A stretch of 42,039 nucleotides of DNA from Candidatus Kerfeldbacteria bacterium (GTDB lineage Bacteria > Patescibacteriota > Patescibacteriia > JACPL01): NCBI GenBank assembly GCA_016182525.1, contig JACPGL010000041.1, forward strand, positions 1-42,039, written 5' to 3'. Below the pieces are notes generated by a model. The model saw nothing but the letters and a program-made list of their open reading frames with translations. It was not told where the DNA came from and did not search any database. This document shows, in pieces, positions 21,332 through 28,777 of this stretch. Within the stretch, counting starts at the first letter, position 1; each line of letters opens with the position of its first letter. The position numbers and the translations under genes were made by a program.

Positions 21332-21490
21332 ATGTCAAGTTAAGCAATGTCACCTTTAAGGAATGTCGTGAACAATGTCATGGTAAGCCATGTCACAGTG
21401 AGCCTGTCGAACTGCTGTCGAAGGAAATGTCATGCTGAAAGTAATTGTCATGCTGAGCAATGTCAGGGTGAGCCTGTCGAACCCTCGTCG
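21332..21490 (+). repeat. Degenerate tandem repeats (AATGTCA-N-TGAGC units)
   Basis: About eight units of 12-18 nt beginning AATGTCA, several ending TAAGC or TGAGC. Two are extended into longer palindromic units containing GTGAGCCTGTCGAAC and TGTCGAAG. It fills the gap between the giant gene and the GIY-YIG gene. Confidence 0.7.
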
Positions 21491-21509
21491 AAGCATGGCG
21501 AGTACCTTT

Positions 21510-21821
21510 ATGAGAACCTACTGGGTGTACATCCTTAAATGCTCAGATGATTCTTACTACACTGGTGTTTGTAATAATCTCGAGCGACGCATTGCGGAAC
21601 ATCAACAGGGTGTAGATTCGAATTGTTACACGTATACGCGACGACCTGTCGAATGTATTTTTGTTGAGGATTCACCTACAATCATAGAGGCGATAGAAAG
21701 AGAAAAGCAAATTAAGAAGTGGTCGCGCGCAAAGAAAGAAGCACTTATTCATGCGGATTATAAGCGACTGATAGAGCTTTCAAAGTCAAGATCCCGTCAT
21801 GGTTCGACAAGCTCACCATGA
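21510..21821 (+). CDS. GIY-YIG nuclease domain protein (UPF0213-like)
   Basis: A 103-aa single-domain GIY-YIG protein. YWVYILKC and YYTGVCNNLERRIAEHQQG carry the two Tyr and the Arg of the active site, and the Glu lies in IEAIEREKQIKKWSRAKKEA. Such stand-alone proteins may act on DNA ends or branched DNA; their role is mostly unknown. The start at 21510 (MRTYW) is chosen because a longer frame from 21432 translates repeat sequence. The last ~11 codons (RSRHGSTSSP) and the stop are supplied by the flanking palindromic repeat, so the native C-terminus ends near RLIELSK. Repeats on both sides suggest a link with repeat mobility (inference). Confidence 0.85.
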   Translation: MRTYWVYILKCSDDSYYTGVCNNLERRIAEHQQGVDSNCYTYTRRPVECIFVEDSPTIIEAIEREKQIKKWSRAKKEALIHADYKRLIELSKSRSRHGSTSSP

Positions 21822-21921
21822 CATTACTCACTATACCCCACTCTGTCATCCCTTGAGCTTCACTCTGTCATCCTGAGCAATGTCAGGGTGAGCTTTCGAA
21901 CCCTTGTCGAAGGATCTCTTC
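21795..21921 (+). repeat. Cluster of palindromic repeats after the GIY-YIG gene
   Basis: Contains GTCATGGTTCGACAAGCTC...CATGAC, then GTCATCCTGAGC, and CAGGGTGAGC...TTGTCGAAGGATCTC. These are variants of the units at 21389-21490 and 23484-23528. The first unit overlaps the end of the GIY-YIG reading frame. Confidence 0.75.
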
Positions 21922-23483: not shown

Positions 23484-23528
23484 GGGTTCGACAGGCTCAC
23501 CCTGACATTGCTCAGGGTAACATTCCCT
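23484..23528 (+). repeat. Dispersed palindromic repeat (TCGACAGGCTCACCCTGACA type)
   Basis: GGGGTTCGACAGGCTCACC followed by CTGACATTGCTCAGGGTAAC: the reverse complement of the unit at 21463-21490. Confidence 0.75.
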
Positions 23529-27729: not shown

Positions 27730-28125
27730 TGGTGGAGATGGTGGGAGTTGCACCCACGTCTAAGCGCCATGAACACCGCACACTACGAGCGTAGAATGTT
27801 TATGTTGGTCAGCATGCGGAATCGAAACATTCAAAAATACCGTATGCTCGAGCTTCAAATGGTCAGCGCGCGTTGAAGCGGACGCGTGCTCATGTCTCAT
27901 GGGTTGGCACCCGTTTCATTCTATGAGACCTCGAATGGACGGATGGCTGCGGGGTTTAAGCCGCAACAGGAGCGAAGGCGAAAGATTGCGCCAATGCGCG
28001 AACTCCGCTCTTCACTTTTGATACAAAGTTTGCACTTCGTATGTGAATGGGGGTTTAACGAGTCTTCCATTCATCCTCGGCTCGCGTGGGTTGTCAATGA
28101 TCGCTTATCGATGCTAGGCATCCCC
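27730..28125 (-). ncRNA. ssrA: tmRNA (ssrA)
   Basis: This RNA rescues stalled ribosomes with SmpB. The tRNA-like ends pair as GGGGATG/CATCTCC (one G-U) with an encoded ACCA. The T arm is GTGGG-TGCAACT-CCCAC. A long P2 helix joins TAAGCG...GAGC near the 5' end with its complement before the T arm, and PK1 is seen as CCGAG...CTCG. The resume codon GCA is at 28033-28031. The tag frame encodes 25 residues beginning ANFVSKVK, ends SFAFAPVAA, and stops at TAA (27958-27956). The 396-nt length is typical. The tag end is PVAA rather than the common ALAA. Confidence 0.92.
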
Positions 28126-28307
28126 GGAATCATTTCAATGGCGGTATCTTCGCGTATCCTAAGCCCGTCCCCCAGCGGGACCCGTCAGATGGGCCCCTGT
28201 CACTCTTCTCTCGGTGGTCGAAGAGTAACACCTTTCCCATCTGCCACCCGCTGGATCCAGGCTTATACGTTCCTGCCCGTCGTATACTCAACATCCAAAA
28301 TGATTCC
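28126..28307 (-). ncRNA. Rod-shaped structured RNA abutting tmRNA (6S-like candidate)
   Basis: This 182-nt segment folds end to end. The closing stem is GGAATCATTT/AAATGATTCC; then CGTAT-AAGCC/GGCTT-AGG-ATACG; then CCAGCGGG/CCCGCTGG, CAGATGGG/CCCATCTG, and a tip stem GTTACTCTTC/GAAGAGTGAC. Unpaired sequence between the first two stems forms a central bubble. Size and rod shape with a bubble resemble 6S RNA, but no conserved 6S sequence was identified and SRP or RNase P motifs are absent. It begins 8 nt after the smpB stop and its last base touches the tmRNA 5' end. Confidence 0.5.
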
Positions 28308-28315
28308 GTGGTTGT

Positions 28316-28771
28316 CTAGCGCATCTGAGTTTTTAAGTGGCGGCGAATATCACGGTCAATTTCGCGTTTTTTGATGACCGCCCGCTTATCGTGTTTCTTT
28401 TTGCCGCGCACAAGCGCAACCTCGACCTTGATAAGCCGCGCCTTAGTATACACGTTTAGGGGCAGGATTGTCAAGCCCTTCTCATTCAGCTTGCCGACGA
28501 GTGAGTGAAGCTCCTGTTTGCGCACCAAGAGCTTGCGGGTGTGGCTTGGGTCGTAGTTTCGCTGCACCGTTGCTGCTGGTTCGTACGCCGAAATATGGGC
28601 ACCTTTGAGCCACAGTTCACCCTTTTCAAGCGAGATGTAGCTGCCTTTCAGATTCATGCGTTTCATGCGCACCGATTTCACCTCTGGCCCGGTCAACACA
28701 ATACCCGCTTCCCAGGTATCGAGGATGTCAAAGCTATTTTGGATTCCTTTAGAGATGGCTAAGATGGACAT
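28316..28771 (-). CDS. smpB: SsrA-binding protein SmpB
   Basis: A 151-aa OB-fold protein that carries tmRNA to stalled ribosomes. SFDILDTWEAGIVLTGPEVK (N-terminal), LKGSYISLEKGELWLKGAHI and the basic C-terminal tail RGKKKHDKRAVIKKREIDRD are diagnostic. The start is ATG 28771, supported by a -10 TACAAT ending 6 nt upstream; a GTG at 28777 would extend it by 2 codons. It lies directly before the structured RNA and tmRNA on the same strand, so protein and RNA partners may be made from one transcript. Confidence 0.97.
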   Translation of the reverse strand: MSILAISKGIQNSFDILDTWEAGIVLTGPEVKSVRMKRMNLKGSYISLEKGELWLKGAHISAYEPAATVQRNYDPSHTRKLLVRKQELHSLVGKLNEKGLTILPLNVYTKARLIKVEVALVRGKKKHDKRAVIKKREIDRDIRRHLKTQMR

Positions 28772-28777
28772 GAGCAC

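Follow-up and report, generated by a model that had tools for sequence, protein, structure and literature searches.

The 182-nt rod-shaped structure between smpB and ssrA, the tmRNA gene, is in our reading one copy of a lineage-specific hairpin repeat, non-coding, MITE- or REP-like and dispersed between genes, that lies in the leader of the tmRNA; we give this explanation, under which the rod is no RNA gene in its own right, a probability of about 0.78. The rod thereby adds a new family to a known kind of element and illustrates how a conspicuous structure next to a housekeeping RNA may turn out to be a dispersed repeat. More interesting and more useful than the rod itself is a putative ssrA promoter, which likely lies within the smpB reading frame and is kept across the bacterial class to which this genome belongs. 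The features of the locus, numbered from the first letter of the window (the whole stretch of 42,039 nt that was analysed), are the following.

28316..28777, minus strand: smpB (153 aa), an open reading frame with 74 SmpB relatives, lying upstream of ssrA in 84/90 class loci
28445..28474, minus strand, directed toward ssrA: putative promoter TTGACA-N18-TATACT (11/12), read as codons TTG ACA ... TAT ACT, from a promoter scan and class conservation
28298..28320, minus strand: smpB-side arm of the outer stem, GCTAGACAACCACGGAATCATTT, which includes the smpB stop codon
28126..28307, minus strand: the 182-nt rod between smpB and ssrA (MFE −81.3 kcal/mol, z −6.3)
28156..28266, minus strand: core of the rod, a family A copy of the dispersed hairpin repeat (88 to 93% identity to copies C48, C3, C44, and C28; match to covariance model R1)
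28171..28255, minus strand: superfamily skeleton, GGGTGGCAG..GGGAA..//..ACAGGG..CCC..CTGACNGGNCCCG, found in 22 copies
28113..28135, minus strand: tmRNA-side arm of the outer stem, AAATGATTCC plus tmRNA nt 1 to 13, also paired in the MFE fold of the precursor
27730..28125, minus strand: one-piece tmRNA (ssrA; Rfam RF00023, 105.5 bits), whose mature form folds with an acceptor stem
27956..28033, minus strand: likely tag reading frame, ANFVSKVKSGVRALAQSFAFAPVAA-stop, read by eye, with a presumed resume codon

On the minus strand, which carries all three, positions 28777-27730 read smpB, an 8-nt spacer, the rod, and the tmRNA; all of the smpB-ssrA gap except these 8 nt is rod. The original prediction, which placed the rod at 28126-28307, downstream of smpB and directly against the tmRNA, was right to the base: smpB, also on the minus strand, has its end at 28316, and base 28126 adjoins the 5′ end of the Rfam tmRNA match (28125-27730, minus). 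ARAGORN reports no tmRNA at 27730-28125 despite this match. The minus-strand rod is predicted to fold with 64 pairs, and none of 200 dinucleotide shuffles was equally stable; its termini pair with each other, GGAATCATTT at one end with AAATGATTCC at the opposite end. Nested perfect stems had been proposed from the first base to the last, and of this picture the long rod and its paired ends stand; the stems are not perfect, several internal loops lying among the 64 pairs, and the complementarity does not stop at the ends, an outer stem extending it on both sides. The plus strand also folds stably (MFE −66.4 kcal/mol, z = −5.9 against dinucleotide shuffles), as a DNA palindrome should. No intrinsic terminator was found at the rod.

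The core of the rod is dispersed through the 1.04-Mb genome, where five close copies, the rod included, share 88 to 93% identity over 86 to 108 nt, the four others each on a separate contig. The genes adjoining the close copies are unrelated to each other; from reading the proteins, we take them to be a ribonuclease H-like gene, a cysteine desulfurase and an oxidoreductase gene, ndk, and thyA with a phosphodiesterase-like gene. The R1 model, built from the five close copies, revealed a second, commoner subfamily, and a 16-copy model then returned 22 superfamily copies from the genome, with no match having an E value between 1.6e-10 and 0.01. The two subfamilies have the skeleton in common, with stems altered on both arms, and superfamily copies stand in either orientation to their neighbor genes and in no common gene context. 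Across 381 class genomes, the 16-copy model gave matches at E ≤ 0.001 only in four others, namely, G359 and three genomes of one genus; these matches are weaker and keep the skeleton with different tips. The element is thus lineage-restricted, yet probably not confined to one species. In one arm of four copies (three on C49 and one on C16; L229, L230, L231, and L234), a 20-nt palindrome, CCTGCCTGCCGGTAGGCAGG, is nested. A hairpin copy in the distant genome G252 (L237, 1501-1631) reads GGGTGGCACCGCGGG, which resembles the T-box motif; a T-box leader was considered and rejected, as Rfam gives no T-box match and the mixed gene contexts are not tied to aminoacyl-tRNA synthetase or amino-acid genes. 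A phage or plasmid source of the rod was likewise rejected, the core having no match there and the exact pattern being absent from viral contigs.

Such a repeat is not a fixed part of the locus. We collected 90 tmRNA loci of the class, and in 84 of them smpB lies directly upstream of ssrA on the same strand; the gap between the two has a median length of about 50 nt (below 60 nt in 47 of the 84), and none of the 84 gaps holds a homologous rod. The stems are accordingly not conserved in relatives with an smpB-ssrA gap, and the core recurs at unrelated loci, which makes it unlikely that the rod is a new RNA kept at the smpB-ssrA locus, as had been envisaged. What survives of that proposal is a shared smpB-RNA-ssrA precursor, in which a promoter inside smpB would place the rod in the leader; an independent conserved RNA does not survive. 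Folding reaches z < −3 in 18 of the 37 gaps of 55 to 200 nt, compared to 4 of 113 control stretches from further upstream, and the gap hairpins of L143 and L106, each sought in its own genome, are both high-copy repeats, with 63 matches in G026 and 79 in G010 (both strands counted). Since both tested hairpins are high-copy repeats and half of these gaps fold strongly, the smpB-ssrA gap appears to be filled repeatedly by lineage-specific hairpins. The idea that relatives keep a hairpin precisely at the 5′ end of the tmRNA was not borne out: stems are enriched gap-wide, with no peak at that end. Unrelated quasi-palindromes are present in the gaps of L106, L114, L135, L140, L143, L150, L156, and L161, often composed of short, degenerate motifs, for example, TTAGTAG or GGTTATTG. 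Several of the G010 copies consist of two arms about 85 to 200 nt apart, as if flanking different interiors.

Within 450 nt upstream of ssrA, sense-strand promoter sites matching at least 10/12 positions occur at 76 of 85 class loci (our own included), compared to 0 on the antisense strand at the same 85 loci and over the same 450 nt, and nearly all of the sense sites sit at identical smpB codons. When an embedded site is defined by a −35 element with at least 5/6 matches and a −10 element of the form TATNNT, 74 of 85 class smpB genes carry one. The codons concerned are strongly biased relative to the remaining smpB, with (i) TTG for Leu in 76/79 (18% in the remaining smpB), (ii) ACA for Thr in 65/83 (25%), (iii) TAT for Tyr in 78/81 (61%), and (iv) ACT for Thr in 63/64 (24%); Fisher p values run from 1e-12 to 1e-48, although the shared ancestry of the genomes means that they overstate independence. 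Judged by this comparison of sequences, the codons are fixed well beyond the needs of the protein. Even when Tyr is followed by Asn, Ser, Pro, Leu, or Ile, TATNNT is often retained in the DNA, the variants kept without Thr being TATAAT, TATAGT, TATCCT, TATCTT, TATATT, and TATTCT. At L120, L169, L178, and L191, four of the 11 loci that lack the embedded site, a 10 to 12/12 promoter has moved to the smpB stop or into the gap. L112 and L141, also lacking it, show weak gap sites of 9/12, of a kind seen as well in 8 of 38 genomes with an embedded site. L130, L145, L154, and L188 have neither an embedded promoter nor, by the same scan, a replacement in the gap, which counts against the repeat-in-leader explanation.

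A separate search gave 74 SmpB genes, of which only three carry an embedded site by the above definition. Two of them (L019 and L037) are from Patescibacteria and have ssrA directly downstream; the third, from an alphaproteobacterium (L030), has ATGACA and TATTTT and probably qualifies by chance. Neither L015, a Berkelbacterium with its tmRNA on the opposite strand, nor L068, with the tmRNA downstream, has such a site. The promoter coincides with a Thr of SmpB at a position where most other SmpB examined have Phe or Trp. Taken together, these patterns point to an ssrA promoter that likely lies within the smpB coding sequence and is kept class-wide. If true, this would be a plain example of a promoter that constrains a protein sequence and fixes synonymous codons, and it would offer part of the reason for the lasting association of smpB with ssrA. 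The neighborhood itself is known from elsewhere, e.g., Streptomyces coelicolor, where smpB likewise lies beside ssrA and where ssrA's own promoter gives most of the tmRNA (PMC2635970); the difference is that here the likely promoter lies within the smpB reading frame and is fixed class-wide. The papers searched, a coverage outside which most subscription literature lies, hold no description of an embedded ssrA promoter.

Based on these observations, we propose that the hairpin repeat was inserted, in this lineage, into a short gap between smpB and ssrA. Transcription of ssrA would start from a sigma-70 promoter in smpB (28474-28445), with read-through from smpB probably contributing as well, which would make the rod part of the 5′ leader of the pre-tmRNA, roughly 310 nt long and lying between the promoter and the mature 5′ end. 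The leader would fold into a long duplex likely to be cut by RNase III, by analogy with Neisseria, where RNase III cuts transcripts carrying Correia-element MITEs (PMC10969869). RNase P would then take off the remainder at 28126/28125, giving the mature tmRNA 5′ end; a cut at this place would release the rod exactly, and the rod would be lost during pre-tmRNA maturation. Hairpin insertions in the gap would be near neutral and are probably tolerated because they fall in nothing but pre-tmRNA leader, later discarded, and this tolerance would account for the many relatives with their own unrelated gap hairpin. Across the class, about 107 to 325 nt separate the embedded promoter from the tmRNA, an unconstrained leader length of the sort expected if the leader is cut away.

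The repeat-in-leader explanation leaves one significant feature of the locus unexplained, namely, the 23-nt outer stem. With 20 matches in 23 nt, it scores higher than all of 20,000 shuffles and 19,423 random pairs (0 reaching its score in either set), and it is locus-specific and too good for chance. Complementary flanks at every copy were suggested at first, but they are significant at the ssrA copy only (C3 is marginal, with p = 0.05, and C48, C44, and C28 are not significant). Given the outer stem, the ssrA locus is not simply a core with random flanks. The stem may have arisen from template-switch copying between the arms of the palindrome, or it may form a leader in which the 5′ end of the tmRNA is masked. 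The latter idea can be extended to a rod that is a cis-acting leader controlling tmRNA maturation, in which the smpB stop-codon region, paired with the 5′ end of the tmRNA, keeps the acceptor stem from forming until this pairing is opened, either by ribosomes completing smpB or by RNase III. The stem does span the smpB stop codon and tmRNA nt 1 to 13; the acceptor stem has a probability of 0.0 in the predicted precursor, compared to 0.76 to 0.90 in the mature RNA, and forcing it in the predicted precursor costs 9.2 kcal/mol. However, the acceptor stem is unformed in the prediction even without the smpB-side arm, which indicates that the effect is not specific, and relatives have no counterpart, many of them having almost no gap at all. 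We therefore hold such a cis-acting leader to be unlikely. A little less likely still is the broader version, in which the hairpin superfamily, found in several lineages of the class, is an undescribed structured element under selection that here sits in a leader coupling tmRNA maturation to smpB translation, through smpB-stop/tmRNA-5′ pairing in a transcript that starts inside smpB.

The stems of the superfamily covary, with at least one pair-preserving double change in 6 of 21 consensus pairs, and this could mean selection on structure, a further point against the repeat-in-leader explanation. Together with the conserved letters of the internal loops and the presence of 22 copies here and of weak ones in four other class genomes, covariation would also fit a transcribed, structured RNA with a trans function of its own, of which the ssrA copy is one paralogue. 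The same covariation is, however, expected from DNA palindromes with arm-to-arm correction, and the occurrence of copies in both orientations, their lack of shared gene context, and the absence of an Rfam match (other families, searched at permissive thresholds, match neither the rod nor its copies nor its distant relatives) make a trans-acting RNA decidedly improbable. A 6S RNA in tandem fusion with ssrA, which the original prediction had raised and which only the length and overall rod shape favor, retains next to no probability: in the Infernal/Rfam search on the rod stretch, the 6S model RF00013 gave no match at the gathering threshold or at E values up to 10, nor did it match genome-wide, the same search detects the 6S RNAs of E. 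coli, B. subtilis, and others, and copies of the rod core are present elsewhere in the genome.

The repeat resembles known bacterial MITEs (Correia, ERIC, RUP, and RPE; reviewed in PMC10969869) in being short, non-coding, dispersed, and intergenic, with strong stem-loop transcripts. It is a multi-copy element with palindromic arms (a parent transposon was sought as Y1_Tnp only) and differs from MITEs in having a conserved core with variable flanks and no recognized target-site duplication or parent transposon ends; no such duplication was seen by eye in the aligned flanks of the copies. With REP and REPIN elements and their RAYT genes (PMC2817692, PMC3116915, and PMC3733652), it shares the character of dispersed extragenic imperfect palindromes in many copies. 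These elements are defined by a unit of 20 to 40 nt with a GTAG or CGTC tag at one end (PMC3733652), whereas the unit here is 85 to 130 nt, lacks a family-wide GTAG or CGTC tag, and has flank letters that vary by subfamily. The genome holds two Y1_Tnp (RAYT-like) genes, and a Y1_Tnp protein is a plausible mobilizer of the hairpin repeat in the past. Direct linkage was rejected, the R2 model having no match around either gene. At or near each Y1_Tnp gene lie perfect short hairpins with 11-nt arms (L267, 1274-1303; L269, 1512-1534 and 2014-2036), which are candidates for cognate REP elements. Elsewhere in the window, a further repeat, TGTCATNCTGAGCAATGTCAGGGTGAGCCTGTCGAAC, occurs in several copies and in both orientations at 21376-21493, 21801-21915, and 23484-23524.
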